Part shown: piece by piece, positions 10,740-63,917 of the stretch
Layout of the letters: each line of letters opens with the position of its first letter
Position numbering within the stretch: position 1 is the first letter of the stretch
The notes under the pieces: model-generated
Databases searched by the model: none
Told to the model about the DNA's origin: nothing
Seen by the model: the letters and a program-made list of their open reading frames with translations, nothing else
Made by a program: the position numbers and the translations under genes
Assembly (NCBI RefSeq): GCF_019704315.1
Contig: NZ_AP024597.1
Coordinates: 1,426,001-1,490,000 of the forward strand
Source: Stygiolobus caldivivus
GTDB taxonomy: Archaea; Thermoproteota; Thermoprotei_A; Sulfolobales; Sulfolobaceae
DNA length: 64,000 nucleotides
Direction: 5' to 3'

Positions 10740-12479
10740 ATGTTTAAGTCACTATTGCGAATAGGGGAAATAACGGGCTCTGGAAGTTCTACCAAGTTGC
10801 CCATTGTAAAAGTAAGGACAAAAGGGGAGGGGCTCCTCTGCTTCGTAGTGTTCGACAACGCGGAGAAGAAGGTGTACGTAGAAAAAGAAAAACTAGGGGA
10901 AGACGACGAGGAGAAGTACGCCTTTATCGACGACGCTAAAGGGCAGAAACCCCAAGACAGGCTGACGACAAAGCACTTAGAGTACATTTTAGGTTTCAAG
11001 GAGGGCGGTGAAAAGGTAAAGGGCAACAAGTTCGCCCTCGAGGTGGTCAGGGACAAGCTTAAGGGCGGTAAGACACGCCAACTCCTGGACGAGGTGCTGA
11101 GTTGGTACCCTTCAGAAGCGGAAGTAGACATAAAAGACGACGACTGGGAGTGCACACTGTACACGGTTAGGGTAAAGACAAAAGACGGTAAGGCAATAGA
11201 CTTGGCTACGCTCGACGACTACAGGAGGTCGTTGACGGATTACGGCGAGACTGTAAAGGGTAAGTGCCAGTTCTGCGGCTCAGACCAAGTCTTAGCAGAC
11301 CCCGCCTACCCCGGGGGTAAGATGTTGAAGGTCTTCATAACAGACAAGAAGGGGTTCCTCTCTCAGTTCGGTGACGTGGTCCAGTCGCACACTATATGCC
11401 CCTCTTGTAAGTACAAGCTCGAAATGGGGCTCAACTACGTAGAGTCTAAGTTGACCACCAACATAGGTAAGCTTAACGTGTCCATAGTGCCCGACTTACC
11501 GCCAGACGCAGACGCGGGCAAGCTTAGCGTAATCGAAGTGAGTAGGGAGGGTTATATCCTGAAGGGGCTGGAGCAGTTGGTGAGGGGTGAGAGGGACGCC
11601 GAGGAGGTCCTACAAGAAATGGTGGCGGACGTCAGGCTCGACCTCGTCTTCGGGGAGTCCCAACAGAACAAGTTCAAGCTCTGGAGGGTCATCCCTGAAG
11701 TGGGGGTACCGCGTTTAGTCCGAGTGGTTAAACTGATGAACAGTGCTAAGTCTAAGGTCGACGTCACGCCCGACGGGGGGAAACTCGGGCTGGGCGACGT
11801 GTCGTTTAATACGCTATACGGAGTCCTGCCCGTAAGGGACGTAGGGGGCAAGGTAGACCCTAAGGTCTTCTTGGAGTTCCTCGAAGCCATACTACTTGGC
11901 AACCCCGTGGACAAAAACTACGTTTACAGCTCCTTCTTATCGGTAATAAGGTGTAAACGTTACGACACTTGTACTAACAGCTTGACGTCCTTCACCTTGG
12001 AAGACTTAGTACTATACCAAGAAATATTTATATATGTTATGAAGGAATTGGGAATTATGGAGGCAAATACTAGTCAGGCCCCCGACCAAGTGGTAAAAGA
12101 CGTGAGCAGTTACGCCGACAGCCTGGGGCTGAAAGGGGGGCTAAAAGGGCTCTTCCTATTAGGGGTGTTAACGGCACACGTAGGGAGGGCGCAGTACAAC
12201 AAGGGAGACCAAAAGAAAGCCATACTGGACAAGATAGATTTTGAGGGGATGGACTACGACGACGTGGTAGCGTACGCGAACAGGCTTATGGAGTCGCTGA
12301 GGGACTACAAGTTACTGAACTCCTACACCGAACTACTCTACAGCGAGGCGTTAAGCCTTATTAAGTCCAACAGGGGAGACCTCTCAGACACCCAGTCTAA
12401 CGTCTTCCACATCCTCTTAGGCTATTCGTACCAGACTAAGGTGTTCATACTGTCTAAAGCACAGAAGGAAGAGGAATAA
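10740..12479 (+). CDS. cas8b: Cascade large subunit Cas8b/Csh1-like
   Basis: 579 residues. The large subunit of type I-B complexes recognises the PAM and recruits Cas3. Two Cys pairs, C176-C179 and C220-C223, make the zinc-binding element common in Csh1/Cst1-type proteins. The C-terminal half is helical. The family call rests on this Cys pattern, the size and the Csh2-type Cas7 neighbour; Cas8 proteins diverge fast and another I-B subfamily is possible. The gene is divergent from cas7, which is unusual for this module. A run of 11 C begins 24 bp after the stop. Confidence 0.85.
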   Translation: MFKSLLRIGEITGSGSSTKLPIVKVRTKGEGLLCFVVFDNAEKKVYVEKEKLGEDDEEKYAFIDDAKGQKPQDRLTTKHLEYILGFKEGGEKVKGNKFALEVVRDKLKGGKTRQLLDEVLSWYPSEAEVDIKDDDWECTLYTVRVKTKDGKAIDLATLDDYRRSLTDYGETVKGKCQFCGSDQVLADPAYPGGKMLKVFITDKKGFLSQFGDVVQSHTICPSCKYKLEMGLNYVESKLTTNIGKLNVSIVPDLPPDADAGKLSVIEVSREGYILKGLEQLVRGERDAEEVLQEMVADVRLDLVFGESQQNKFKLWRVIPEVGVPRLVRVVKLMNSAKSKVDVTPDGGKLGLGDVSFNTLYGVLPVRDVGGKVDPKVFLEFLEAILLGNPVDKNYVYSSFLSVIRCKRYDTCTNSLTSFTLEDLVLYQEIFIYVMKELGIMEANTSQAPDQVVKDVSSYADSLGLKGGLKGLFLLGVLTAHVGRAQYNKGDQKKAILDKIDFEGMDYDDVVAYANRLMESLRDYKLLNSYTELLYSEALSLIKSNRGDLSDTQSNVFHILLGYSYQTKVFILSKAQKEEE

Positions 12480-15072: not shown

Positions 15073-18000
15073 GTTTCAAGTCCCCAAGGGAGTGCTACAA
15101 ACTACTTCCAAAATTGTAGTACTTTTTTCTCGTCTGAAGTTTCAAGCCCCCAAGGGATTGCTACAAACCGAAATTGATAAGGGTGATCGAAGAGTGGACG
15201 AGAGGGTTTCAAGTCCCCAAGGGATTGCTACAAACGTCTCAGGTATCATGTTAGTAATTTCGGGAAAGATGTTTCAAGCCCCCAAGGGATTGCTACAAAC
15301 ACGGGTTAAAAAGCAATTCTGTCAGACAGCTGTCAGAGTTTCAAGCCCCCAAGGGATTGCTACAAACATTCGTCGCTGTTAAATACCCTACCAAAGAACC
15401 CTTGTTTCAAGCCCCCAAGGGATTGCTACAAACCTGGTGAAGAACGAACTTGAACAGGGTATAGAAATGATGAGTTTCAAGCCCCCAAGGGATTGCTACA
15501 AACTCGTTTCGAATGCACCTGAGATAGACTACTCAATAGTGTTTCAAGCCCCCAAGGGATTGCTACAAACAACAAGAAAGAGATTAGCTTTTTACTTAGG
15601 AATTGGGTTTCAAGCCCCCAAGGGATTGCTACAAACTCGTTTCGAATGCACCTGAGATAGACTACTCAATAGTGTTTCAAGCCCCCAAGGGATTGCTACA
15701 AACCTAAAAAGTGCGAATTTGCTATAGTAGTGTTTTTTCCGTTTCAAGCCCCCAAGGGATTGCTACAAACGGTCTATTTCACTTATTATCTTACTTACTA
15801 TTTCAATGTTTCAAGCCCCCAAGGGATTGCTACAAACTAAGATATGAGTGAAGAACAAGTTAATTCGCAAGAGGGTTTCAAGCCCCCAAGGGATTGCTAC
15901 AAACAACTGGTAGGGGTTTACTGGTGACCATTTTATTATGGTTTCAAGCCCCCAAGGGATTGCTACAAACATGCAATAAGCTCAATTACAAAGAGAGTGT
16001 AATAAGTTTCAAGCCCCCAAGGGATTGCTACAAACTAATTGAGTGATAAAAAATGTCCGAAGAGATAAATGAAGGTTTCAAGCCCCCAAGGGATTGCTAC
16101 AAACACTTCACCAGACCATGAAGAACAGAGGTTATCGCGTTTCAAGCCCCCAAGGGATTGCTACAAACCTCCTTACTCGTCATTTTATACCCCACCTCTT
16201 TCCTGGTTTCAAGCCCCCAAGGGATTGCTACAAACAGTATGACCCCTACATTTACGTCATTGACCCTATGAAGTTTCAAGCCCCCAAGGGATTGCTACAA
16301 ACTATCATCATTTGAAAAACTGTAAATTTCTTTATCTGAGTTTCAAGCCCCCAAGGGATTGCTACAAACTAAACCTCAGAGAGCTGAAAGGCAAAATAGT
16401 CGTGAGTTTCAAGCCCCCAAGGGATTGCTACAAACACTTTTGATGAAGATAGAAAAACTGCAATGACATTTCTATGTTTCAAGCCCCCAAGGGATTGCTA
16501 CAAACTATATTCCTCCTAATTTTTGAATATCTCTTTGATCGAGTTTCAAGCCCCCAAGGGATTGCTACAAACTGAATATTGTGTGAAATGGTAATACGTA
16601 AGAGCAAAAAGTTTCAAGCCCCCAAGGGATTGCTACAAACATATAATAAGCTTTGAGACCGTTCACCATATTTGTGTTTCAAGCCCCCAAGGGATTGCTA
16701 CAAACGCCAAGTCCTTGTACTTTTTAGGTAGTTTTCTGTAGGTTTCAAGCCCCCAAGGGATTGCTACAAACGGATAATATGGAAGATGGCTAAGGATAAG
16801 GTAATTCTGTTTCAAGCCCCCAAGGGATTGCTACAAACACGTAGTGAACTTGGTGCTTAAACAAATGAAAAATATGTTTCAAGCCCCCAAGGGATTGCTA
16901 CAAACCTCCACGATGGGGGGCATCGCGTCCGCCAGGAGATCAACGTTTCAAGCCCCCAAGGGATTGCTACAAACACGTGCAAAAAAGATGATGACCCTAT
17001 CGCAAATTTAGGGAGTTTCAAGCCCCCAAGGGATTGCTACAAACATATCAAGGTATCCTATTTTAACGTAGAATTTTATGGTTTCAAGCCCCCAAGGGAT
17101 TGCTACAAACTGTAAAAATGCCGTGGAGTGAGGCTAGAAGGATTGAGTTTCAAGCCCCCAAGGGATTGCTACAAACCCTGGGTGACGACAAACCCTTTGG
17201 AACAGCGGTCTGTGTTTCAAGCCCCCAAGGGATTGCTACAAACGTGAAGATGATAGCGATTTGAAACCTATGATTTGTGGTTTCAAGCCCCCAAGGGATT
17301 GCTACAAACTGCAAATCCGTTAGTAGCCTTAATATTAGTGCTTGCGAGTTTCAAGCCCCCAAGGGATTGCTACAAACATTTACAGGACTGCAAGGGCTCT
17401 CAGAACTAGCATGAGTTTCAAGCCCCCAAGGGATTGCTACAAACAGCAATGAGGGTTATCAGTCCCTCCACGTCTCGGTTGTTTCAAGCCCCCAAGGGAT
17501 TGCTACAAACATCATGAGGTGGGAGTATTGGAGCAGGGCAATGGAGTGTTTCAAGCCCCCAAGGGATTGCTACAAACTTTGTAACAAAGTCCACGATAGC
17601 CCTATTAGTACGTGTTTCAAGCCCCCAAGGGATTGCTACAAACATTTTTGAGACGTCAAAGGGCTATTACCAAAATGGGTTTCAAGCCCCCAAGGGATTG
17701 CTACAAACATCTTCAAAAATCTATTTGAAGAAAAACTCAAATAGTTTCAAGCCCCCAAGGGATTGCTACAAACCCCTGAAGAACGGGAGAAAAATAGTGT
17801 TTGGTGAGGAGTTTCAAGCCCCCAAGGGATTGCTACAAACTGAGGCTGAAAAGTTCAGAGAAGTTGCCAAATTCGGGTTTCAAGCCCCCAAGGGATTGCT
17901 ACAAACATTGTATTATCGATTTGATTGAGTTTGTTCTGGTCGTTTCAAGCCCCCAAGGGATTGCTACAAACTCCATGAGGTGGGAAAATGAAAGAGCAAA

Positions 18001-20657
18001 AAGTATCGTTTCAAGCCCCCAAGGGATTGCTACAAACGTAACTCAATAGCACCCATATTTGTATCAACACCTGGTTTCAAGCCCCCAAGGGATTGCTACA
18101 AACTTTAATCAACATGGTCTTCTTCTTCTTCTCTTGTAAGTTTCAAGCCCCCAAGGGATTGCTACAAACTCCTAAGAGTGATTTCCACGGTAGTTCCCTC
18201 AGGGTCAAGTTTCAAGCCCCCAAGGGATTGCTACAAACTTTTGATTAGAATCTATTTCTACCTGTATGCTATTAATGTTTCAAGCCCCCAAGGGATTGCT
18301 ACAAACACAAGCGGGGGCATCGCGTCAGCTAAGACGTCGATGTTTCAAGCCCCCAAGGGATTGCTACAAACCCTACACAATTTTAGCTTATGCCACAAAT
18401 GGACAAGGGTTTCAAGCCCCCAAGGGATTGCTACAAACCAAAAGCTGTAGTTGAAAAGCTCAAATTCCAAGAAATAGTTTCAAGCCCCCAAGGGATTGCT
18501 ACAAACTCTTTATCTTTCTTCTTCATCTCAAATCACCGGGGGGTTTCAAGCCCCCAAGGGATTGCTACAAACTTAACGTTACAAATTTCGGAGAGGCGAA
18601 TGCAAACAGTTTCAAGCCCCCAAGGGATTGCTACAAACTTAACTGGGGGGTTAACAAAATACATATAAATGTCTAGTTTCAAGCCCCCAAGGGATTGCTA
18701 CAAACATGAGCGGGAATTCAAACCCAAATATAGGTGTTTTTTGTTTCAAGCCCCCAAGGGATTGCTACAAACTCTATAGAACGATTTATTACCTTTATTC
18801 CCTTTTCTTCGTTTCAAGCCCCCAAGGGATTGCTACAAACCTTAACGGCGATCCCAGTGACGCGTATTATGAAAGATAGTTTCAAGCCCCCAAGGGATTG
18901 CTACAAACCACAGGGACACTTAGAAGTTTACTTAATTCCAATCCCGTTTCAAGCCCCCAAGGGATTGCTACAAACCTTCAGGTTATGCGGGTTTATATGG
19001 CGGGGGTTTGGGCTCGTTTCAAGCCCCCAAGGGATTGCTACAAACATAAAGCAAAAGTTAGAGCAAAAATTAGGCTATCTGTCATGTTTCAAGCCCCCAA
19101 GGGATTGCTACAAACAGAGATGAAATTTCAAAGTTTTTATGCAATCACAAGAGTTTCAAGCCCCCAAGGGATTGCTACAAACAAAACTTGTGCCTTTGGA
19201 AGTTTCTGTACATACTCCGTTTCAAGCCCCCAAGGGATTGCTACAAACTACTGAAACAGCTATTCAAATGCAAAGAGGGCTGATGTTTCAAGCCCCCAAG
19301 GGATTGCTACAAACAAATCCACGGAACGCATTATATGCTATCGAAGCTGCAAGTTTCAAGCCCCCAAGGGATTGCTACAAACTATATAAAGCTTCAGGAA
19401 TTCCGAGTGTTCCACTTCCGTTTCAAGCCCCCAAGGGATTGCTACAAACGAAAATGGTGACAATTAGTATAGAATGGTCACAACCTGGTTTCAAGCCCCC
19501 AAGGGATTGCTACAAACACATTATATTATATTTTCTATATCATCTCTATTTCACGTTTCAAGCCCCCAAGGGATTGCTACAAACAACCTCCACCCTTTAG
19601 GGTGGGGAGGAAGTCAAGGAGTTTCAAGCCCCCAAGGGATTGCTACAAACATTACTTTATTCATGTTTAATCACTTTTTGCTATAGGTTTCAAGCCCCCA
19701 AGGGATTGCTACAAACCCAGAATATTGGCAAGAAAAACAGGTATTCAGGAGATAGAGCGTTTCAAGCCCCCAAGGGATTGCTACAAACAGATTTCAACTC
19801 CAAACTGTAGAGCATATTGATCGAGTTTCAAGCCCCCAAGGGATTGCTACAAACGTCAAAAAGAGATGGGTAATCTAGAGAGAAAAACATGTTTCAAGCC
19901 CCCAAGGGATTGCTACAAACGAACACTCTCACTATGTACATATGCACATCACATTTTGTTTCAAGCCCCCAAGGGATTGCTACAAACTGAAAAAAAAGAT
20001 GAAGTAATAAAAAAAGTGATAGAAAGTTTCAAGCCCCCAAGGGATTGCTACAAACAGGCGAGAGGAATTTAGCTGTTGTAGTAGCATTAGTGTTTCAAGC
20101 CCCCAAGGGATTGCTACAAACACACTAATGAATATGTAGATGTCGCTGAAATGTGTGTTTCAAGCCCCCAAGGGATTGCTACAAACCCGAAACTACCGAT
20201 TCCAACAGAAGTCCAACTACTAGCTGGTTTCAAGCCCCCAAGGGATTGCTACAAACAGGTACGGTCTACCAAAGTTTGACAAAGCACGGCTCAAGTTTCA
20301 AGCCCCCAAGGGATTGCTACAAACGTGTTTTTAACCAAAGTGAGTTTAATAACGCGGTGAAGTTTCAAGCCCCCAAGGGATTGCTACAAACGATAGTCTC
20401 ACCGTGTTATTTCGCGTTACACAAAGGGTTTCAAGCCCCCAAGGGATTGCTACAAACCTATTGCGGTAGACCTTACGACAGCGGAAAAAATTCGGTTTCA
20501 AGCCCCCAAGGGATTGCTACAAACAATTTTTAATCTAGAACAGCTATCGTAGTTTTTTCTAGTTTCAAGCCCCCAAGGGATTGCTACAAACTTACGTTGA
20601 AGACTTTTGAAGAGGTCTATACATATCGTTTCAAGCCCCCAAGGGATTGCTACAAAC
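15073..20657 (-). CRISPR. CRISPR array 2 (84 repeats, 83 spacers)
   Basis: The 30-bp repeats read GTTTCAAGCCCCC at the start and GGGATTGCTACAAAC at the end on the plus strand. The transcript strand is minus, so the crRNA handle end is CTTGAAAC as in array 1. I counted 84 starts from 15073 to 20628. Spacers are about 35-40 nt. The leader is at the right (20658 onward) beside cas4-cas1. The oldest repeats at the left differ: 15073 has GGGAGTGCT and AAGTCCCC, and 15206 has AAGTCCCC. One spacer is duplicated at 15504-15540 and 15637-15673. The repeats create many false ORFs. Confidence 0.99.
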
Positions 20658-21639: not shown

Positions 21640-22155
21640 ATGTCAGGTAAACAAAAGCCTTATGAGATAAGTAGTGACGTCTTCGTGACCGGGACTTTGA
21701 TCTGGTACTCCTATATTTGCCCGAGGGAGGTGTGGTTGATGAGCAGGCAGATCGTACCATACCAAGACGACAGGAGGCTGGAATACGGCAGGGCGGTACA
21801 TAAGGTCCACTCCGATGAGACTTTCCTGATAATGGAGGGGATGAGGGTGGACAGCTATAACACTGAGACCGGGGTAGTGGTGGAGGTGAAGTGTTCCAGT
21901 AAGCACTTGGAGTCTGCTAGGGCACAGTTGCGGTATTACCTCTACAGGCTGAAGGAAGTGGGGGTGAAAGCAGTAGGCGTCGTCAGGGTGCCCGACGAGG
22001 GGGTGGAGGAGAGGTTAGAGGAGGTGGACGAAGGGAAGGTGTTGGAGGACATCAAGAGGGTGAAAGCTATCGTCGCGTTGGAGAGGCCTCCCGAAAAGGT
22101 GAGGGTAAAGTACTGTAAGAGGTGTGCCTACAGGGAGTTCTGCTGGCCCGTTTAG
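21640..22155 (+). CDS. cas4: CRISPR-associated exonuclease Cas4
   Basis: 171 residues, a short Cas4 of the RecB-like nuclease family that trims prespacers and selects the PAM with Cas1-Cas2. Four cysteines for a 4Fe-4S cluster are visible: C27 (YICPRE), then C159, C162 and C168 near the C-terminus. Nuclease residues appear as H54, D71 and the E82-V-K84 motif. It lies beside the array 2 leader and points away from it. The start is a leaderless ATG. It is followed after 337 bp by cas1 on the same strand. Confidence 0.93.
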   Translation: MSGKQKPYEISSDVFVTGTLIWYSYICPREVWLMSRQIVPYQDDRRLEYGRAVHKVHSDETFLIMEGMRVDSYNTETGVVVEVKCSSKHLESARAQLRYYLYRLKEVGVKAVGVVRVPDEGVEERLEEVDEGKVLEDIKRVKAIVALERPPEKVRVKYCKRCAYREFCWPV

Positions 22156-22492: not shown

Positions 22493-23440
22493 TTGCCTAA
22501 GAGGCTTTTCCTGACCACCCCGGGGGCGTTGAAGAGGAAGAACAACACTATAGCGTTGGTGACGAAGGAGGGCACTAAATACGCGCCTATAAACGACGTC
22601 AAAGCAATATACGTCTTCTCTGAGGTGAGGCTTAACAGGAGGTTCCTGGACTTCATGGCCAAGAACGGTATAGTGGTGCACTTTTTCTCGAAGAGGAGGA
22701 GGTACGTGGGGTCGTTTATACCGAAACAGCCCCACATGTCCGGCCTCGTACTGGTGAAGCAAGTAGAGGCTTACTTAGACCCCGGGAAGAGGTTGCACTT
22801 GGCAAAGAGGTTCGTGGAAGGGTCTATTAGGAACATGTCGTTAGTCTTGAGGGAGAACAAGGTGGACAACTCTGCCCTGAAGTCGTCACTGGAGAGGTTG
22901 GAGGGTGCAAAAAGCGTAGAGGAAGCGATGGGGGTAGAGGGGAGTGCCAGGGAGGAGTACTATAGGGGACTGGACGTCATACTAAAGGGGGGACTGGGGA
23001 AGAGGAGTAAGAGGCCCCCGGAGAACTGGGTGAACTCCCTCATTAGCCTGGGCAACATGATGTTGTATACTGAGGTCTTGGGGGCTATATACCAGACCCA
23101 ACTGGACCCGAGGGTGGGTTACCTCCACACTACTAACATGAGGAAGTTCTCCCTTAATTTGGACATAGCCGACGTCTTTAAGCCCATAATAGTGGACAGG
23201 CTGGTGATAGCGATGATAAACAGGAAGGAAGTGAGTGAGGGGGACTTTGAGGTGAAGGGGCTGAAGCTGAAGGACGAGGGGCTGAGGAAGTTCGTTAAGA
23301 AGTTCGACGAAAAGATGGAGAGTAAGGTGAAGGTGGGGAAGAGGAAAGCGAGGTACTCCACACTCCTCAGGATGGAGGCGTATAAGGTGGAGAAGTACGT
23401 GTTAGGTGACGAGGACTATAAGCCCTTTGTAGGCAGGTGA
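22493..23440 (+). CDS. cas1: CRISPR integrase Cas1
   Basis: 315 residues. Cas1 joins new spacers to the leader end of the array. The three metal ligands expected in Cas1 are in place: E149 (GVEGSAREEYY), H212 (GYLHTTNM) and an Asp of LDIADVFKP (D224 or D227). The start is TTG at 22493: an in-frame stop lies 9 bp upstream, and a purine-rich GGAGGGGTGAGG sits just before it as a ribosome site. No cas2 follows within the 419 bp to the next gene. Confidence 0.96.
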   Translation: MPKRLFLTTPGALKRKNNTIALVTKEGTKYAPINDVKAIYVFSEVRLNRRFLDFMAKNGIVVHFFSKRRRYVGSFIPKQPHMSGLVLVKQVEAYLDPGKRLHLAKRFVEGSIRNMSLVLRENKVDNSALKSSLERLEGAKSVEEAMGVEGSAREEYYRGLDVILKGGLGKRSKRPPENWVNSLISLGNMMLYTEVLGAIYQTQLDPRVGYLHTTNMRKFSLNLDIADVFKPIIVDRLVIAMINRKEVSEGDFEVKGLKLKDEGLRKFVKKFDEKMESKVKVGKRKARYSTLLRMEAYKVEKYVLGDEDYKPFVGR

Positions 23441-25424: not shown

Positions 25425-25454
25425 GTGATAAACTGGGGATCCACAATATATAGT

Positions 25455-25700
25455 ATGGGCTACGTCGTAAAAGTCGATGATAGTGGTCGAATAAAACTCC
25501 CTAAAAACCTGGCTAATGCCGACTCAGTAATAATTATTGATGCTGAGGCTTTCTTCATTGGCATCCCCATACCCAAGGACCCCCTAACTGAAACTTCTGG
25601 CATAATCGAGACCAAACTCAGTGTTAAGGAGTTGAAAGAGGTTGCTGAAAAGGAGGCTGAAAAAGACGCACTAGGCACTCAAAATGATGATAGAGAGTGA
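25455..25700 (+). CDS. vapB: Antitoxin VapB (AbrB/SpoVT-type)
   Basis: 81 residues from ATG 25455; an upstream GTG at 25425 would add ten residues (INWGSTIYS) that do not belong to the domain. The swapped-hairpin AbrB fold is shown by VKVDDSGRIKLPKNL at the N-terminus, followed by an acidic and helical tail that would wrap the toxin. The stop overlaps the vapC start by 17 bp, the usual arrangement of a toxin-antitoxin operon with autoregulation by the pair. Confidence 0.85.
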   Translation: MGYVVKVDDSGRIKLPKNLANADSVIIIDAEAFFIGIPIPKDPLTETSGIIETKLSVKELKEVAEKEAEKDALGTQNDDRE

Positions 25701-26097
25701 CACTCTCTTAGCACATATTAAGTCTAACGATAGGCTTAAAACAGTGGCAGACACAGTCCTTTTAAGGATAGCTAAAGGAGAGTTGAGAGTAATAGCTTCT
25801 AGAGAAGTATTTCATGAGCTTTATTATGTTTTAAGGAATATGGATTTATCTCTACAAGAAATACTCCTAAAACTTGGTGCGTTAAAAAGTATACCTAGCA
25901 TAGAATGGGTCCCTACTACCGTAGATACGGATCTCCTCGCAATATCTTTGATGCACCAATACGGTATAACTTCAGTATTCGATTCTTATTATGCAGCAAC
26001 TTGCTTATTATACGATAAGGATAAGACCATGATCTCCACAGACCACATATTCGATAAAGTAGCTGGAATCAAAAGGATAGACCCAAGGGATTTTTAA
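25684..26097 (+). CDS. vapC: PIN-domain toxin VapC
   Basis: 137 residues. PIN-domain ribonuclease with the four acidic positions: D6 (ESDTLLA), a Glu in VFHELYYVL, Asp in VFDSYYAAT and Asp in STDHIFD. The protein would cut RNA when not bound by VapB. The frame is intact. The pair lies between an IS scrap and a MITE relic, a position typical of mobile TA modules. Confidence 0.9.
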   Translation: MMIESDTLLAHIKSNDRLKTVADTVLLRIAKGELRVIASREVFHELYYVLRNMDLSLQEILLKLGALKSIPSIEWVPTTVDTDLLAISLMHQYGITSVFDSYYAATCLLYDKDKTMISTDHIFDKVAGIKRIDPRDF

Positions 26098-36703: not shown

Positions 36704-37120
36704 TTAACTATTAACTAACTTGACCACGACCTCATGGACTCTGCACGCCATCTGTAAAGCCTTTTCGGCGTCAAACCTGGAATAAATGTCTTCTGGCGGG
36801 GTACCGGTCTCCTCGTCACCGTACATCGCCGGCTCCCTCTCCTTCCTCAAGACCCTCGAATAATAAGAAAGCTCGTCTATCAGCTCTTGGAACCACTTAG
36901 GGAATTTACCGCTTTCCCTTTTTAAGACTACTCCTACATCGTGCCATTTAGGTGGCTCCACACCCACGAACCTGAGGGACGCCTTAAGGAGTAGCTCAAC
37001 GGCCTCCTGACACTGTCGTACTACATAGGGGTAATTCCCGTCATTCAGGGCCTCTTTGGCGTGTTTTATCCTCTCCTCGGCCTGCCTAACATAAGACCTG
37101 ACTAAGTCTTTGTTATCCAA
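36704..37120 (-). CDS. HEPN-domain protein (MNT-HEPN pair)
   Basis: 138 residues, all helical. The signature is an N-terminal helix pair with VRSYVRQAEERIKHAKEAL and YVVRQCQEAVELLLKASLR, then KWHDVGVVL. In MNT-HEPN modules the HEPN protein is the toxin or RNase half and the nucleotidyltransferase neutralises it. The canonical R-x4-6-H RNase motif is not evident (only RVH near the C-terminus), so activity is uncertain. It lies 2 bp after the nucleotidyltransferase gene, in one operon. Confidence 0.85.
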   Translation of the reverse strand: MDNKDLVRSYVRQAEERIKHAKEALNDGNYPYVVRQCQEAVELLLKASLRFVGVEPPKWHDVGVVLKRESGKFPKWFQELIDELSYYSRVLRKEREPAMYGDEETGTPPEDIYSRFDAEKALQMACRVHEVVVKLVNS

Positions 37121-37122
37121 CT

Positions 37123-37635
37123 TCAGTCACCGAAATCTATTACTTCCCCGAACTTGTAGTCCCTTTTCCTCCAATACCACGCTTTCTTAGACACCCAGAC
37201 CCTCTCAAAGTCCAGTTCCTCCAGCTTTTTCCTCGCCTTGTCGAGTACCCCCTTAAAGAACCCGTTTACGTCATAAAGTATTACGGCGTCTTGTGTCATG
37301 TCCATATAAAGGGGCGAGAAATGTCCTGCTTCCTCCGGGGTCTTGAGGATAGGGGAGAAAGTCACGTAATAGCCGTCGTCCATAAGCCTCTCTAAGTCCC
37401 CCTCTAACATCACCTCGAACTGGTCAAACAATATGACCCTTTCCGTCACAGTTTTGGGGAGGTTTTTAATGACTATGAAGAGGTCTATATCGCTGTCCCT
37501 CCGGTAGTCACCCCTAGCTATGCTCCCGAACACGACTACAGACACCAAATCGTCGCCTAGCTTCTCCTTCATCAGGTTAACCAGCTTCTCTAGCAAACTC
37601 CTGTAAGGTTCGTCCACACCTATATTTAACCCCAC
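37123..37635 (-). CDS. Minimal nucleotidyltransferase (MNT antitoxin)
   Basis: 170 residues. Pol-beta fold with VVFGSIARGDYRRDSDIDLFIV: GS at 37-38 and the metal-binding Asp pair D49 and D51. Minimal nucleotidyltransferases paired with HEPN proteins can neutralise them, in known cases by AMPylation. The extension after residue 110 is longer than in the smallest MNTs and ends with a basic aromatic helix (KKAWYWRKRDYKFGE). It is first gene of the pair. Confidence 0.87.
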   Translation of the reverse strand: MGLNIGVDEPYRSLLEKLVNLMKEKLGDDLVSVVVFGSIARGDYRRDSDIDLFIVIKNLPKTVTERVILFDQFEVMLEGDLERLMDDGYYVTFSPILKTPEEAGHFSPLYMDMTQDAVILYDVNGFFKGVLDKARKKLEELDFERVWVSKKAWYWRKRDYKFGEVIDFGD

Positions 37636-37668
37636 ACAGTAAATAAAAGCTTTAGGCTGAAAGTCAGG

Positions 37669-37770
37669 TTTTGTCAGGGGTCAAAGGTCAAAAACCTCAT
37701 CTCCTCCTTAAAAATTTTTAGACCTTACACTAACGGTACTGTTGCCCTTTATTAACTGGGTATAGGTCTG
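37669..37770 (+). repeat. Dispersed repeat family C, copy 1
   Basis: About 100 bp: TTTGTCAGGGGTCAAAGGTC at the left and a conserved core CTTACACTAACGGTACTGTT then GCCCTTTATTAACTG at the right. It is related to 39284-39396 (inverted) and 42718-42816. Core-only copies occur at 46588, 46660, 46820, 56828 and 62418. Confidence 0.8.
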
Positions 37771-38912: not shown

Positions 38913-39467
38913 TAGTCTTTTTACTCTCCTCCATATTATTCAAGTCTACTCTAATGGTTTTCAGTTACCTCTAAAGGTGAACGGTTACTGTACTCGGTAG
39001 GCTAATGAGGGGCAAACTGAGCTTTAAAGTGCCGTCGCAAATTGAAATTTTTCCCTTGTGTCAGTATAGTTCGTGAGAAGATAATACAGTATACGAGAAA
39101 CCCTTCTAGATAAACTAAATCATAAAATTGTTACCTTACACTTTTATAAGTGATATGTATTAATATTGACAAGTGTATATTTAATTGTGTATAACCTACT
39201 CTCTCGGGTCGTTCCACATATCCATTGGAATTTCTAATTGTCTTATTGAAGTGGGTTTTAACTGTTAATTATACGTCTCAAGTAAAATTATACCCGTTCA
39301 GTTAATAAAGGGCAACAGCACCATTAGCGTAAGTCCAAAAAAAAAAATGTTAGAAAAGAAGGTGGACGTTGACCTTTGACCCCTGACGAAGTATAATACT
39401 AAAAAACTGGTGTGAAGAGTAGGGGGCATGACTTAAATTAGATAGGACGTCCCACACACTTGGTTAT
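38913..39467. other. Intergenic upstream of the 1059-residue gene
   Basis: No gene. Repeat C copy 2 lies at 39284-39396; a run of 11 A occurs at about 39338-39348. Confidence 0.6.
39284..39396 (-). repeat. Dispersed repeat family C, copy 2 (left flank of 1059-residue gene)
   Basis: Inverted copy of 42718-42816, with conserved ends ATACCCGTTCAGTTAATAAA and TTTGACCCCTGACGAAGTAT. The two copies bracket the large ORF as an inverted repeat of about 105 bp. Confidence 0.85.
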
Positions 39468-42400
39468 TTGTCCACGAATTATACCAATTCCGTAGAGGAT
39501 ATTTCGATCTACAATGGAGACGTTACACCCCATAATATTCTAAGGTTTAAATTTTACCCCATGTTTAGTTATATAGTGGTAGAGGTCTTAAACGCCAAAC
39601 AGCTCAGGAAATTATTACGTTCTCAGGATAAGGTATTCGTAGGTGGTCTACCCTTCGTCGGGAAGACCACCCTTATCACTGAAGCTTGCGGGGGGCTTTG
39701 CGGTGAGAAAGTCCAGTATATAGAACTGCCCAAGGAGTTCCACAGCGTCGACGAACTAAACGCTTGGAAGGAGAAAGTCGACAAGGTACGTAGGGGGGTA
39801 ATAGAAGGCAGGAGTTACGTAATAGACCTCGTACTGGGGAAAGTGACCCCCACAGACAAACCCTCCCTGGTGTCACCGCTCAGGGGGATAGAAGGTGAAG
39901 TAGTGAAAGTGAAGGGCTTAAGAGCGATCAGGACGTTATATAAGGAGGGCATAAGGGATGACAAAGTGGTATCAAAAGTCCTGTTATATTCCACAGTGGC
40001 AATGCCAGACCACTATACGGTCATACCAAAGCTCGTGAACGAAGGGGTGGAGCTGTATAAGCAGGGCAAGTTGGACAAGGCCCTAAACGTCGTGTTAGGG
40101 CTGAAGAGGCTCTACGCCCTGCTCCTGCCAGAGGACGTGAGCGGGGAAGAAGCCATAGTCCACGCACTTGGGTCGGTACTACCAAAGGGTATAGACTTCA
40201 AGACCGCTTGGGGGGAGTTAAGCGACACGTGGAAGGAGCTGGTATATTACAGGTTGGACTGGGCACTGGGGCTCCTACCCGGTACAGCGAAGAAAGTCCT
40301 TGCTAGGAAAGAGGTCACACCTAAGGGAGAAGCGGTGTCCGTACCCCAAATAGACCCCTTCTTCGTAGACTTAGCGGAGTGGGGTAAGTCCATATACCTT
40401 AATGGAGCAGACTTGTGTATAGTAGGCCCCATAAAGTCGGCAAAGTCTACCTTAGCTGACTCTATACGTCAAATGATAGGGGAAGTAGACGTGGTCGACT
40501 ACAACAACTATAACTTCTTAAGCTTAAACGAGAAGCTTACATCAGGGGAGCGGTATATCGCAGTACTCACCGAGGACTTATACTACTCCATACCTACGGT
40601 ATGTATTATGATACACTCGGACAAGTATATTTCGGAATTTATAGACTATTTATACCTAAAGGAAAATAAGAGGCGTAAGAGGCCGCACGCCGACACCTTA
40701 AGGCCGGGGCCCGACTATTACTACGACCTCCACGAGCTTAAGTACGGTATGGAAGAAGACGAAATAGAAGACCAATACTTATACGAGATGGACAACTACA
40801 TTAAAAACACGGTCTTCGGCGGTGACGTCAAGCTAATGGAAAACTACTTACCCCTATTTGCGTTGGGGAAAGACTACTTACCCCTGCCTGTGAAGGCGAG
40901 CGAGGCTGTGCTGAAGTACCTTAACAAAAGTGTCCACGAACCGTTCCTAAGGTGGTTTTCAGCTTTTTACTATAGGAGTGATACTATAGGGGAGGGCGTA
41001 GAAATAGACAAAAAGCAGGCAGTGCAGAGGGTGAGGGAGGAATTAATAAGGGCGGTAAAGGAGCAAGGGCTGCAGGACGACCTATTGAGGGTGTACTTTG
41101 ATAATGTGTCAAAATTCGTTTACTACCCCGAGACTGGTATAGACGGTTTCGTAAAGACCGCTTACGGCAATTATTCCCCCTTGGCGGACGCAGTCCTTTA
41201 CGACCCCGACATATTGGAGGAGTTTGGATGGGATTTAGGGGACAAATTAAAGGAGACCTGCGACTCACTGGGGGAGCTCTTGAAACACATTTATGAGGTC
41301 GACGAGGATAATGCATCGGAGGTGATGAAAAGTGCCCTCAACATATTTGAGCGCAGGTTGTACAATTACGCGGCGGTATATAGGGTACTGTCCTCACATG
41401 ACGTCGACATAAACTGTATTAGGAATGCGTTTTATGCTATGAAGGTCTACGTATATTATCTGGAAGAGGTTGGGGTATTCGAAAAACTTGAGGAAAAGCT
41501 GTATGACGCTGTGGTCGCTACTAAGGACGAGGAATTAGTACGGGAGTACATGAAGATGGCCTTTAAGTATTACCTCAATACTAGGAGTAGCCCCCAAAAA
41601 ATAGTAGACCACGTAACCAAAATAGCCGGGCTTTCAGGTGTAGCCAAGGCTGCGTGTAGCCCCGTATACGCGGTAGACATGGTGCTGAACGGTAAGGTCA
41701 AACCCGAGGGGATAAAGGACCCGGTAGAGGTCTTTGGGGCGTTGATGGGGCTCATTGAAATGGGACCCCTTATAATGGAAAAGGATAATCTGGGGTTAGC
41801 CGTAGAGTTCTATAACGTCCTCGAGGGGCTCTACCACAAGTTCACTAAGGTAGCTAAGGTGATAGACGACGAGGCTATACGTACGGTCTACGACGTGGTT
41901 TACGATGCGGAACTGCAGGACAAAAAAGAGTTCTTGGACTATATATCCGTAGTGGTGGACATGTACGGTTTCGCAGCAGGGGTTATGACCTTTTACAATT
42001 ACGGTATAGAGGGAGATTTCGCCGACGCATTAGAACGAATAGACTTAATGGTCACCCCGGTGTACAGTTATATTGTTAATGAGCCCAGTCTGGATAAAGA
42101 GAGGGCGACGTGGTTATTGGAGGCCTATAAGGTAAAGCTCGCCAAAGAACTCCTCACCTCCAAGTACGGTTACAAGGCCGTACTGCAGGACATCGTGGAT
42201 CTGTACTCTAAGGTCGAGGGGTTACCCGACAAGACACTGAAGGAGAGGGTGCTACTGGCATACCTCATATCCAAGTTACTGCTATACGGTGAGGTCGCGG
42301 AACCGATACCACCCCTCCGAGCGGAGGTACTATATAGAGCGGCTTTAGCCCTTACCGGGAAAGACGTAGACGGCTTCCTCAAAGAAGTAGAGGAAATACG

Positions 42401-42647
42401 AGTACGTGGGAGACCTGTCACGGGACTGAAGTTGTTGAGGGAACCAGAGGTGATGGACTCATTAGCACCAATACTCTTAACTTACTTCTACTTAAAAGGG
42501 GACAAAAAGGGGATAGAGAAGGTCACCAAGTACGTAAAGAAGGGGGGCTCGGGGATACCGCTGTTCATAACTAAGAAGATATTTGACGAAATCAACATCA
42601 AAGGTAACATAAATAAGTATATCGCTTCGCTGATCCTCTACGTGTGA
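39468..42647 (+). CDS. Large protein with two P-loops and an alpha-solenoid-like C-terminus
   Basis: 1059 residues; no named family recognised. Walker A motifs occur twice: GGLPFVGKTT at 59-68 and GPIKSAKST at 320-328. The first P-loop is followed by a strand ending in YVIDLVLG (about 117-124). A very acidic Tyr-rich stretch (about 395-450) leads into long amphipathic helices to the C-terminus with no membrane segment. The start is TTG 39468. An NTPase core plus helical repeats resembles STAND-type sensors in outline only; that is inference. The gene is alone, bracketed by inverted repeats of family C, and is followed 18 bp after its stop by a run of 9 C. Confidence 0.75.
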   Translation: MSTNYTNSVEDISIYNGDVTPHNILRFKFYPMFSYIVVEVLNAKQLRKLLRSQDKVFVGGLPFVGKTTLITEACGGLCGEKVQYIELPKEFHSVDELNAWKEKVDKVRRGVIEGRSYVIDLVLGKVTPTDKPSLVSPLRGIEGEVVKVKGLRAIRTLYKEGIRDDKVVSKVLLYSTVAMPDHYTVIPKLVNEGVELYKQGKLDKALNVVLGLKRLYALLLPEDVSGEEAIVHALGSVLPKGIDFKTAWGELSDTWKELVYYRLDWALGLLPGTAKKVLARKEVTPKGEAVSVPQIDPFFVDLAEWGKSIYLNGADLCIVGPIKSAKSTLADSIRQMIGEVDVVDYNNYNFLSLNEKLTSGERYIAVLTEDLYYSIPTVCIMIHSDKYISEFIDYLYLKENKRRKRPHADTLRPGPDYYYDLHELKYGMEEDEIEDQYLYEMDNYIKNTVFGGDVKLMENYLPLFALGKDYLPLPVKASEAVLKYLNKSVHEPFLRWFSAFYYRSDTIGEGVEIDKKQAVQRVREELIRAVKEQGLQDDLLRVYFDNVSKFVYYPETGIDGFVKTAYGNYSPLADAVLYDPDILEEFGWDLGDKLKETCDSLGELLKHIYEVDEDNASEVMKSALNIFERRLYNYAAVYRVLSSHDVDINCIRNAFYAMKVYVYYLEEVGVFEKLEEKLYDAVVATKDEELVREYMKMAFKYYLNTRSSPQKIVDHVTKIAGLSGVAKAACSPVYAVDMVLNGKVKPEGIKDPVEVFGALMGLIEMGPLIMEKDNLGLAVEFYNVLEGLYHKFTKVAKVIDDEAIRTVYDVVYDAELQDKKEFLDYISVVVDMYGFAAGVMTFYNYGIEGDFADALERIDLMVTPVYSYIVNEPSLDKERATWLLEAYKVKLAKELLTSKYGYKAVLQDIVDLYSKVEGLPDKTLKERVLLAYLISKLLLYGEVAEPIPPLRAEVLYRAALALTGKDVDGFLKEVEEIRVRGRPVTGLKLLREPEVMDSLAPILLTYFYLKGDKKGIEKVTKYVKKGGSGIPLFITKKIFDEINIKGNINKYIASLILYV

Positions 42648-42717
42648 ACTCCAAGATGTGGTCACCCCCCCCCGCCCGTCGGTTATTACACTTTTATTTA
42701 AATTAGCGTCCTGCTAT

Positions 42718-42816
42718 ACTTTGTCAGGGTTCAAAGGGCAACGTCCGTCCTCTTGTTTGGCAGGTTTTTGGCCTTACGCTAATGGTGCTGTTGCCCTTTA
42801 TTAACTGAACGGGTAT
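42718..42816 (+). repeat. Dispersed repeat family C, copy 3 (right flank of 1059-residue gene)
   Basis: Core CTTACGCTAATGGTGCTGTT then GCCCTTTATTAACTGAACGG. Near-perfect inverted match to 39284-39396. Confidence 0.85.
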
Positions 42817-42964
42817 GAATTATGGGGAGGCCGTAAGCTCCTGCAGGTAACTCTATACTCAGAATAGTGCTAGAGGGGAAGTTTATTACCGCATACAAAG
42901 GGGTATATGCGCTTTGAGTTAGAGCTACTGAGTGCGGTCATAGTGTTCGTTGTTAAGTTATAAA

Positions 42965-43220: not shown

Positions 43221-43458
43221 CTATAAACTAAGCGTGAAATGGGCCTCATCATAGAACTACGATGCGGATCAGGGACTTGACATGCCTTAAGTACTATGAA
43301 GAGACTTTATAGCGTAATGACACTATGTCCACTCTAGGGTCTGTTATCATAATGGGGTTTGACGTCTTGTAGAGACCGCTCTACCTCACCCCGTGAAAAA
43401 GTGGCTTTGGTTTAACTTGTTACAATATGTTTTAAACCCCTATTACCATTTACATTAT

Positions 43459-44290
43459 ATGGAAAGAGTGGGAAAACTGAAAATAACTGTCCTCAGCGAT
43501 AACTTCACCTCAACGATAGTCCCTCCCTTGATCGGGGAGTGGGGTTTTTCAGCGTTTATACAAGCTGATGACGTAGGGATATTATATGATGTGGGGAACA
43601 GCGGCTTACCGCTAGTCCACAACGCCCCATACCTCGGCATAGACCTGAAGAGAGACGTAGACTATATCGTACTTTCCCACGGGCACTCCGACCACACCGG
43701 GGGGGTTAGGGAACGACAAGTTGAGGGAGCTCTTAAGGGGTAAGGTGGTAATAGCTCACCCAGATATCTTCGAGAAGAAGTTCCTTAACTGGCGGGGGAG
43801 GATCGAGTATATAGGGCTCCCCCTGAGCAGGGAAGAGATGGAGAGTGACTTCAAGCTCGTCCTGACCAGAGAACCAATCGAGTTCACAAAAGGAGTGGTA
43901 TTCGCGGGGGAGGTAAAGGGTTACGGTTTTCCGAGGTATAATAAAGGGCTACTGAAGGCAAAAGACGACAAGGTAGTGGATGACGAACTCTTAGATGACG
44001 CACCGCTCTATATTAATACGGATAAAGGGCTGGTAATAGTAACAGGGTGCGGGCACTCCGGGGTACTCAACATAGTCCGCCACTCAAAGGAGGTCACTAA
44101 AGAGGAGAAAATCCACGCTATAATAGGGGGGTTACACCTACTTTCCTCCCCGAAGGAGCACGTAGCCCAAGTCCTTAAAGAACTGGAGGGCGTCGCAGAT
44201 AAAATCGGCCCTGCACACTGTAGCGGTTTTCAGGTAAGGTTAAGCGAGAAGTATATAGACGCAGGAGTAGGCAGGGTATTTGAAGTGTGA
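43459..44290 (+). pseudogene. Metallo-beta-lactamase-fold hydrolase, one frameshift
   Basis: Two frames join into about 276 residues. The first has the metal motif HGHSDH (H74, H76, D78, H79). The second begins just after it with GNDKLRELLRGK and supplies GCGHSGVLNI and PAHCSG. The break falls in a run of 7 G at 43699-43705; with 6 G the frame is continuous (HTGGLGNDKL). The product resembles archaeal MBL proteins annotated as dihydropterin ribofuranosylaminobenzene phosphate synthase-like. The start ATG 43459 is leaderless after a TATA element. It could be intact if the run was miscounted. Confidence 0.85.
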
Positions 44291-46428: not shown

Positions 46429-47357
46429 AAGTTAAAGACTGCAACTGGATATATAGTCGTTTTGACTGTGTAGCCCTCCTCGTGATGGGTGAGCGATTTG
46501 GGATTTGTGAAGGCGTGTGCTTACTTACCCGTCACTGTACCCCTTTTACCCTAATGTGATTTACACTTGCCCAGTAAGTTATACCCGGTAGGTTAATAAA
46601 GGGCAACGGTACCGTTAATGTAGGGAAAAAAAATTCGCTAAGCAAGGGAATCGACTTTACCCTTTATTAACTGATAGAGAATAATAAAGGGCCACGTTAT
46701 CGTCAGCTCGAGGTGGTTACGGGCGAGAGTGTAGGGACTTGACCTTATTATCAGCGGCACTCCTCTATATTAGGGGACTAAGGTATAAGGCCCTCCCTCT
46801 CTCTCACTTAGTAATTTTTTAAGACATACACTAATAACTATACTACCCTTTATTGACTGACCGGGTATAAACGCTTAAAACCCGGTGCTCGATAGTGAGT
46901 TATCTGACTTCCTCACCGCCCCTAAGGGCGAAGCTTTCGGCCTCTTGTGATATCAAGGGCTTAGCTAGTAAGGCTTGTGGGCATAGGTTTTAGGTAAAAC
47001 GGTATAAGAGGCCGGAGAGTCCCAGTGTGTGTCACGGTGGTCTTACAAGGGGTAAGCTTACCCTCTGAGAAACTAAACCCGGTCGGTCGGAGGCTTATAC
47101 GCTCCCCGAGAGTTGGGTTTGTAAATATACGGCTGGGTCAAGACCCTGAACAAAGACTTCGTTACTTATACGTCCCCCGAAAGTTGTTGGGTTTGTAAAC
47201 CCCCGACGGGGTACATACAGACCTCTAAGGGCGTTATTACCGTCTTGACCGGGCAAAACACAAAGGCCTTAGGTCCCTCCGCTAAAAGGAGATCAGGGTT
47301 TCAGCACCCCCTTTACTTGTGGGGCCAAACGGGTTACAGCCTGAAAAAAGAGGTGGG
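46429..47357. other. Intergenic with several family C cores
   Basis: Core-only C repeats occur at 46588-46625 (inverted), 46660-46706 (two facing partial cores) and 46820-46872 (direct). No gene is supported. Confidence 0.55.
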
Positions 47358-55894: not shown

Positions 55895-57161
55895 CCTTTA
55901 AAGGGATCAGTAGTCCGGGCCCTCATATCGTTGGTCGTATAGCGTTTAGAGTTTACCTTCAAATTAAAGTTTTTGACGTTCTATAGTTATTAAATATGAA
56001 CAAAATCAGCGACCGTACCGTTAGACAGTACCCATGGTAGGTGCTTTAGCCGGTGTACTGCAGAGTACATAAGCCCGGAGCGGACATCGTAGGTGTAGCG
56101 GTTTTTGGAAAATTACCTTAGCCTCCACCCTGTCTTTGAAGGGCTGTGACGCTTATCGTCAGACAGTTGACGGGTTTACTCAGGCAATACGTGGTTGCCT
56201 TAATAATTTTCCCGGGGATTTACCTCGCTAAAGTTAGGTGACTGGGGAGAAAAGCCCCGCCTTTCCTTTTTTTTTTTTTACCCTATACATTTCGTGCACA
56301 CCTTTACCAATTTTGGTGACGTGAATGACGGCCCCACAAGATGGTCGAAGGCTTAACGGGACTGTGAGATGTAGACCGCTATCTCTCTTTTACAAGGCCC
56401 GAGGCGTTCTATGATGAGCTACTTTCAACGTGTACCCCATTCTACCGTCCGCCGACACGACCCCAGCCTATTGGTCGGGGCGGTGAGCCATCTGGAAAGG
56501 GGAACCCCCGGAAAAGGGGAACCGGTGTCCTTCTACCGTATTATTTAACGTGCACGGTCATAGTTTGTGACTATTTTATGGTAGCAGTGGTACGGAGTCT
56601 CCTTACACACAGTAAAAGTCCCGCTACATATGAACACGATCTTCACTTAACTGTAAGCAGGTACCGGACGAGTCCCTCTTAGTCCTAGGACTGTACTTGC
56701 TAGGGCCAGTTTTAGGTGTCCCTATCACATGTCCACTTAACGCTCTATAAACTGTTAAGCACCTGATGACGGCGAGCCATAACTTGTCCGAACTAAAGGG
56801 CAATGTCGATCCCCATACTCAGCGAATTTTTTAGCCCTACACAAATGCACCGTTGCCCTTGATTAACCGACCGGGTATAAATAACGTGTCCTCACACAGA
56901 TAAACCCAGAAGACTTCCCTAATAGCTGAAGAGCAGTCCCGAGGAGTTAATTACTGTCACCACGTATAAACGAGTCAGCGTAAAAATGAGTGGCTCTCTT
57001 AAAGATTACACAACAACCTTTAACTAGACCTACCAAGGTGAGTCCGGATTTAAACTTTTCAAAATGATTAAAACATGTACTCAAAAATTATTATATTCAC
57101 TTATTTCGTTTATACGGTTTATATTTACTAGAAAGGTTTAAGTAAGATAACTCACATAGTT
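55895..57161. other. 1.27-kb intergenic region
   Basis: No gene is supported. A long T run occurs at about 56267-56279 and a family C core at 56828-56882. The promoter for the next gene is at about 57115-57140 (TTTATATTTA). Confidence 0.5.
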
Positions 57162-62350: not shown

Positions 62351-62654
62351 GATCCATATTTTTTCATGAGACATTTATAAGTTTTATTTCCCTTATCTTT
62401 TCTGTTACTATGACCTAAACAGTTCCGTTATACCCGGTCGGTCTACAAAAGGCGTTATCGTCAGCATAAGGTGAGTGTATTTACGGTAGAGAGCAGAGGG
62501 CTAGCTCTTTATTGTCTACATAAATGAACAGAGTACACGGGGAGTACTGGGGGGCTGAAGCCCCTACACCTAATCACAATGGAGATAAAAGTGTAGGAGT
62601 GAACGGTTTTATAAGGCAACTAGGCTTAAATACATCTTTTTCAAACCATCTTTC
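62351..62654. promoter_or_regulatory. Divergent promoter region, DUF973 and csx1
   Basis: TATA for DUF973 at about 62376-62383 on the minus strand. A family C core fragment at 62418-62472. For csx1, GCTTAAATAC at about 62625-62634 stands 25 bp before ATG 62655, giving a leaderless message. Confidence 0.65.
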
Positions 62655-63917
62655 ATGAAGACCTTATTCGCCCCCATAGGTGATCCTAAGAACTATAAGG
62701 AAGTAGAATATGTGGTAGATGGCTCAGACCATCAATACCCCACAAAGGCGAGTTTCGACGCGATACGTAAAGCCTTAAGCATAGACCACGTAGTAGTCTA
62801 CGCGGGGTTAAGCTTGTGTGACCTCACCAAGAACAGGAGTTACGAGGACTGTGTAAATTATGTCACAGGGTACGTAAAAGATAAGCTCAACATAAATGAC
62901 ATAGATTTGATTGTAGCACCTAACGTCTTTGGGAACACGTTCGTCCAAGAAGACAGAAAGAACACGCTCTTCTTTAACTTCATATATTATAACACACTAA
63001 AGTTGCTGGAGGACAAAAAGCCTGACGAAGTATATATTGACATAACCCACGGGATAAACTACATGCCCTTGCTGGCTACGGACGCAATAAAGCTCGCCTC
63101 ATATACATACATGGTCAATGAGAAGGAGGCCCTCAATTTATCTACCTTTAATTCGGAACCTGTGGTACAAGGCGTTAGCGGGCCTTACCACATTACTAGA
63201 GTGTACGAGGAGAAGACGTCCACCCGGTTATCACTGCTACACGTTTTATCCCCCTTCTTATCTAAAGACCACAAGAACAAAGTGCAAAACAACGTGCTTA
63301 AGGGGGAGACACAGTGTGACGTAGACCTAATCTACTCGTCAGTGACAGCGCTATTCTCGGGCATATTCCCCTATATCGCCTTAATTAAGGGAGGGCTAGA
63401 ACAGTGCTTCAGGGCAGTGGAGGACAAGCTTAGCGTAGTGGACTACATGAACTTCAGGGTCAAGACCGAGGTCAGAGACGAAGGAGGGGCTAGTAGACTG
63501 GTATATAAGGATAAGTTACCGGTGGAGTTGAGCCACCTCCATTCGTTCCTCGATGTGGTGATGAAGGTAACGTCTAACGTAAAGGCAGGAGACGAAGTAA
63601 GGCTAAGCGATATAGAAGAGATGGCGAAAAAGTTTTCTGTTTCAGAGACCGTTAGGTCAATGGTCTTAAACGAGGTAGACCTGATGAAAAAGAGGGGTAT
63701 AGGAAAAGAGCCGAGGCTATACGCAGAAATACTGGCTAACAGCGGGCGTGAAGGGGACGAGCGTAGGAAAGCACAGAAGGAATGTGACTCTAATAGGAGA
63801 AACCTATACGCACATGCGGGCTTTGAACAGAACGTAACATACTTAAGGAAGGAGGGGGATGAGATCTACGTGAGCTATGGTAAGTGTTTAGAGAACGTCA
63901 AGAATCACCTAAAATAA
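62655..63917 (+). CDS. csx1: Csx1-type CARF-HEPN ribonuclease
   Basis: 420 residues. The N-terminal CARF domain (about 1-190) has DITHGINYMP at 129-138, the hallmark of Csx1 proteins, which bind cyclic oligoadenylate made by Cas10. The C-terminal HEPN domain ends with R382-N-L-Y-A-H387, the R-x4-H RNase motif. Upon activation such enzymes cut single-stranded RNA in type III CRISPR immunity. Frame, both motifs and promoter are intact. No cas10 or other type III gene is present in the window, so the signal must come from elsewhere in the genome, perhaps just to the right. Confidence 0.92.
   Translation: MKTLFAPIGDPKNYKEVEYVVDGSDHQYPTKASFDAIRKALSIDHVVVYAGLSLCDLTKNRSYEDCVNYVTGYVKDKLNINDIDLIVAPNVFGNTFVQEDRKNTLFFNFIYYNTLKLLEDKKPDEVYIDITHGINYMPLLATDAIKLASYTYMVNEKEALNLSTFNSEPVVQGVSGPYHITRVYEEKTSTRLSLLHVLSPFLSKDHKNKVQNNVLKGETQCDVDLIYSSVTALFSGIFPYIALIKGGLEQCFRAVEDKLSVVDYMNFRVKTEVRDEGGASRLVYKDKLPVELSHLHSFLDVVMKVTSNVKAGDEVRLSDIEEMAKKFSVSETVRSMVLNEVDLMKKRGIGKEPRLYAEILANSGREGDERRKAQKECDSNRRNLYAHAGFEQNVTYLRKEGDEIYVSYGKCLENVKNHLK

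Follow-up and report, generated by a model that had tools for sequence, protein, structure and literature searches.

The window, a 64,000-nucleotide stretch of the Stygiolobus caldivivus genome, contains on its forward strand one large open frame (39468-42647), which an open reading frame check of the window showed to be a single frame of 1059 codons. The two Walker A motifs of the original prediction were recovered within it as GLPFVGKT and GPIKSAKS (residues 60-67 and 320-327 in 1059-residue numbering), and its proposed long helical C terminus was borne out by alignment and by an AF2 model. The open frame is real, but the start is likelier to lie downstream: alignment places the first codon of the homologues at the equivalent of GTG 39576, and the 36 additional upstream codons have no counterpart. 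The box TTTAAATT is found at 39546-39553, ∼26 bp 5′ of this GTG, a position that matches the promoter spacing of leaderless Sulfolobales genes and on which its reading as a TATA box is based. Because the homologues start at the equivalent of GTG 39576 and this box lies at the appropriate distance, the true protein is likely a 1023-residue form initiated there, with the start probably leaderless; residue numbers below refer to this form. No Rfam RNA was found between 36 and 47 kb of the window. Other genes of the region include a HEPN-nucleotidyltransferase pair (36704-37635; Pfam HEPN and NTP_transf_2), two overlapping open reading frames at 43393-44290 that by eye appear to be a single metallo-beta-lactamase-type gene interrupted by a frameshift, and a small gene pair at 25425-26094 resembling, again by eye, an AbrB-type antitoxin and a PIN-domain toxin.

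Features of the double-P-loop locus, its surroundings in the window, and examples of a co-occurring family (positions are those of the window unless a locus is named)
Feature	Position	Strand	Basis or remark
Type I-B CRISPR-Cas locus	48-23437		
CRISPR arrays of the type I-B locus	48-4041; 15147-20657		
Type I-B cas3; cas6; cas5; cas7	4826-7066; 8185-8913; 8924-9622; 9654-10580		
Type I-B cas8b; cas4; cas1	10740-12473; 21640-22149; 22493-23434		
Dispersed MITE-like repeat (∼108 bp), copy	39286-39398	+	model R1, 87 bits
Candidate TATA box TTTAAATTTT	39546-39555	+	sequence; ∼26 bp 5′ of GTG
Likely coding sequence, STAND-like double-P-loop protein, GTG start, 1023 residues plus stop	39576-42647	+	homologue starts
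NTPase module 1 (residues 3-232): Walker A, Glu77 ending strand 3, helical lid	39582-40271	+	AF2, structural matches, alignment
Walker A 1, GLPFVGKT (residues 24-31)	39645-39668	+	alignment; absent from clade B
NTPase module 2 with winged-helix-like lid (residues 256-465), STAND-like	40341-40970	+	structural matches, hhalign
Walker A 2, GPIKSAKS (residues 284-291)	40425-40448	+	G284 and K290 unchanged in all 16 aligned members
Predicted Walker B aspartate, Asp308 (hhhDYH/N)	40497-40499	+	invariant in 16 members
Candidate sensor: C-terminal half, alpha-solenoid (residues 466-1023)	40971-42644	+	AF2 model, structural matches
Same repeat, second, inverted copy	42713-42819	-	model R1, 96 bits
Same repeat, further copies	37666-37764; 46578-46683; 46771-46871; 56786-56882; 62427-62517		
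csx1 (CARF-HEPN)	62655-63911		20 kb from the double-P-loop gene
∼370-residue family, examples	L084:7200-8306; L180:3298-4422		

The AF2 model (pLDDT 87 for the full protein and 90 for residues 1-465) and the alignment predict two tandem NTPase modules followed by a winged-helix-like lid and an alpha-solenoid. In module 2, G284 and K290 of Walker A, D308 of Walker B and T332, a putative sensor-1-like residue, are unchanged in all 16 aligned full-length members; the Walker B stretch of one relative (L040) reads LMIIDYH. Two hallmarks of STAND proteins are thus present, namely intact Walker A and Walker B motifs in module 2 throughout the 16-member alignment and C-terminal superstructure-forming repeats, with residues 466-1023 modeled as an alpha-solenoid at pLDDT mostly above 80. 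Only 18 residues separate Walker A from Walker B of module 2 in the clade to which the window copy belongs. An origin of the two modules by internal duplication was considered and found to lack sequence support, profile similarity being restricted to ∼31 columns around the P-loop.

In structural comparisons, the region from residue 256 matched ZAR1 best (Z 7.0, reaching residue 416), followed by CED-4 (Z 6.9), NRC3 (Z 6.8), RPP1 and EfAvs5 (Z 6.4), these four at Z 6.4-6.9 and with alignments that extend to residue 465. All matches reaching residue 465 are STAND proteins with the exception of one to ClpA, although Z scores of 6-7 for this pairing of nucleotide-binding and winged-helix domains are moderate, unrelated AAA+ proteins scoring ∼6. 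Residues 3-232 resemble the AAA+ modules of RFC, Ctf18-RFC and TnsC, and also NRC2 (Z 5.8-6.4). The C-terminal half matched NprR, AimR, ARM and importin-type proteins at Z 9-11, values that are undiagnostic for a solenoid. Whole-protein Foldseek searches returned mostly unspecific solenoid matches and nothing below an E value of 0.001, and a search of BFVD gave nothing useful. With the nSTAND3 profile (Pfam PF20720), the NTPase family assigned to Avs5 (PMC12931631), the window protein scored 12.4 bits, below the curated cut-off of 27.2, whereas two relatives exceeded this gathering score (L039, 31.4 bits; L040, 32.1 bits). PADLOC did not match the window protein, and no catalytic effector domain was recognized in it; such absences are relative to the libraries searched and are silent on families missing from them.

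Among 197 genomes of the order, single-sequence searches detected relatives in 16, all of them Sulfolobaceae. A profile search of the phylum gave strong matches inside this family, those elsewhere being short and at the level of the P-loop only, and a scan of genome contigs added Metallosphaera javensis alone. The relatives comprise two clades. Clade A, which includes the window copy, retains the first P-loop and Glu77, whereas clade B has lost both and retains module 2. Clade B genes are intact, occupy one fixed genomic place per genus and form a tree that follows genus phylogeny; S. caldivivus itself also carries one, 26% identical to the window protein. Clade A genes occupy variable locations, often adjoining IS elements, and include broken copies in two genomes (G125 and G155) and fragments in three (G078, G114 and G072). 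The copy of a presumed Sulfurisphaera pairs with that of a presumed Acidianus at 100/100 support. In these respects the clade A gene behaves as an accessory one that moves horizontally. Clade A being mobile with both P-loops intact, and clade B fixed in location with the first P-loop lost, the family offers a natural comparison for the role of the N-terminal module.

Near-perfect inverted repeats had been proposed to bracket the gene like a mobile cassette. Two inverted copies of one element do flank it, one on each side, but they are 84% identical over 111 bp, rising to 95% over the outer 57 nt only, and one of them is equally close (85%) to a copy ∼335 kb away. An initial search for the repeat returned 40 matches; a sequence-only model then built from 20 copies found ∼104 copies in the 2.96-Mb genome, four in one other genome, single weak matches in two more and none in the congener. 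Seven copies (the seventh weak) lie in the window. Genome-wide, 27 pairs of neighboring copies have a spacing of 0.5-5 kb, and nine share the plus-then-minus arrangement seen at the double-P-loop gene. None of the 19 other family loci examined is bracketed by this repeat, and one copy, in G078, has unrelated inverted repeats of 358 bp on both sides at a distance of 1-2 kb. In the congener, the HEPN-nucleotidyltransferase pair and a GH116-like gene are adjacent without the double-P-loop gene, but gene order there is rearranged, such that the empty-site comparison yielded no clean empty site.

Movement of the gene as a cassette by these repeats would account for the enclosure of exactly one gene by two inverted copies of one element. 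It is nonetheless very improbable because the repeats are dispersed, are found without the gene, are absent around homologues and, in the flanking pair, have diverged. A composite transposon or repeat-bounded cassette was likewise rejected, the terminal repeats being neither specific to the unit nor near identical. The flanking copies are ordinary dispersed repeats. Like Sulfolobus MITEs and other dispersed archaeal repeats, the element is short, has many copies and, judged by eye from the alignment, has imperfect terminal inverted repeats; it has expanded in this genome, the congener yielding no copy, and searches for a parent transposon or transposase found none.

Clade A genes are linked to CRISPR loci. 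A csx1 gene lies within 3 kb of 4 of the 15 clade A copies and fragments, compared to 0.097 expected for random placement, and a count of four was never reached in 100,000 simulations. Omission of the G114 copy, possibly orthologous, left three against 0.093 expected (P ∼1e-4), and restriction to intact clade A genes left two of ten (P = 0.002). CRISPR arrays adjoin clade A relatives or fragments in G175, G131, G151 and G078; of the 20-kb stretches compared, those around several clade A copies contain arrays and the eight clade B ones have none. In G078, one fragment comes directly after the cas6 gene in a type I-A operon, and another lies beside a cmr locus (these cas names were assigned by eye, save for stretches analyzed with PADLOC). 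The window copy has a type I-B locus (cas3 to cas1, with two arrays) on one side and csx1 on the other, their nearest parts being 16-20 kb off; it is adjacent to neither, the nearest csx1 being 20 kb and the nearest array ∼19 kb away.

A family of ∼370-residue proteins with no database match was present in all eight genomes in which the window-type clade occurs and in only one of the remaining 23 (Fisher P 1e-6, a raw value that ignores phylogeny and genome size). Its gene lies ∼155-160 bp from the clade A gene in G078 and G125, ∼2.5 kb away in G114, ∼5 kb away in G131 and far away elsewhere, and the S. caldivivus copy carries an internal stop. This family is a possible partner of the tandem-NTPase protein.

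Considered together, these observations suggest that the gene probably encodes a STAND-type signal-transduction NTPase acting as an accessory defense sensor of a Sulfolobaceae family, without a recognized effector. The suggestion that NTPase and helical repeats might form an immune-sensor-like protein gains from the nSTAND3 matches of relatives, the NLR, CED-4 and Avs5 fold matches, and the Csx1, Cas and CRISPR neighbors, the defense function itself being inferred. Weighing against this reading are the lack of a recognized effector domain, the sub-threshold nSTAND3 score of the window protein and its silence in PADLOC, the moderate structural scores, the distance of the window copy from csx1 and the arrays, and the fixed, CRISPR-free loci of clade B. 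An accessory defense gene, often situated in CRISPR-Cas neighborhoods, is most likely. In such a protein, the solenoid would sense a virus- or plasmid-derived cue, as in Avs or NLR proteins; module 2 would switch upon nucleotide binding or hydrolysis; the switched protein may then oligomerize; and the N-terminal NTPase module, at the position usually taken by an effector, might execute or relay an antiviral output. A more elaborate version, in which a CRISPR-coupled STAND system of thermoacidophilic archaea employs the tandem-NTPase sensor, possibly with the ∼370-residue protein, alongside Csx1 and other cyclic-oligoadenylate responders or as a guard of CRISPR machinery, with an NTPase module in place of a known toxic effector, is doubtful. 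In one survey (PMC12988326), Thermoproteota generally showed few defense systems other than restriction-modification, CRISPR-Cas and argonautes. A STAND-type Sulfolobaceae family with CRISPR linkage would, if genuine, suggest that NLR-like sensing is present yet undetected in this phylum.

Chief among the alternatives is a regulator of cell physiology or transcription, STAND- or MalT-like, whose solenoid would have a small molecule or host protein as its ligand and whose NTPase would act as the switch of a regulatory complex. Clade B fits this reading as well, its genes being intact, held at one genomic place within a genus, congruent with genus phylogeny and free of CRISPR nearby, and NprR and AimR, both peptide-responsive regulators, are among the structures matched by the solenoid. 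A precedent is the archaeal OLD-family protein Cran1, a defense-like ATPase reported to serve as a cell-cycle protein (PMC12796447). The patchy, partly degraded, horizontally moved and CRISPR-linked clade A speaks against a regulator, as does the failure to see any DNA-binding domain other than this lid of winged-helix-like form inside the protein, and we regard a non-defense role as possible but rather unlikely. Patchy distribution, degraded copies and IS neighbors would also be expected of a virus- or plasmid-carried gene, for instance a counter-defense or partition ATPase, captured in the chromosome; searches of phage records (50,697), plasmid records (72,556) and IMG/VR matched no relative, which makes this origin improbable.

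As a candidate defense sensor, the window protein is reminiscent of Avs5 (AVAST type 5; SIR2-nSTAND3-repeat), with which it shares a superposable nucleotide-binding and following helical domain (9jap, Z 6.4; 9nc9, Z 6.0), C-terminal alpha-helical repeats and, in two family members, an nSTAND3-type NTPase. It differs in that no SIR2 was matched by Pfam, a second P-loop module forming the N terminus instead, in that the nSTAND3 score is passed by relatives only, and in that its immunity is one we infer. Eukaryotic NLR and apoptotic ATPases (ZAR1, CED-4 and APAF-1) similarly possess a P-loop nucleotide-binding domain, a winged-helix-like domain and a long superhelical C terminus. Identity to these is ∼10%, however, and the window protein has a compact nucleotide-binding domain, with the short Walker A to Walker B spacing of its clade, and lacks a CC, TIR or CARD signaling domain. 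The proximity of csx1 to some clade A genes recalls ancillary proteins of type III CRISPR systems, but the window copy is distant from csx1 and its protein has no CARF or SAVED match in Pfam or PADLOC.

Among distant matches beyond Sulfolobaceae that align over a long stretch, the best came from genome G312. It belongs to a family of STAND-like Thermoproteales proteins (L106, L107 and L133-L147), mostly 1300-1600 residues long and located in defense islands. These proteins are longer than the window protein, and many have two P-loops ∼310-440 residues apart, with a coiled-coil-like stretch between the two modules; in others only the central P-loop is present, the first being missing or degenerate in some. 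Also unlike the Sulfolobaceae genes, the STAND-like gene in L106 (8903-13661) is preceded at 92 bp by a CARF-type gene on the same strand; in L107 (7038-13332) a CARF gene is found two genes upstream, same strand, with a methyltransferase gene further off. Homology of module 1 to the N-terminal P-loop domain of these proteins was not significant. Comparison of the two families by hhalign nonetheless gave a probability of 96.9 over residues 204-491, a match spanning the end of module 1, the nucleotide-binding domain and the lid.
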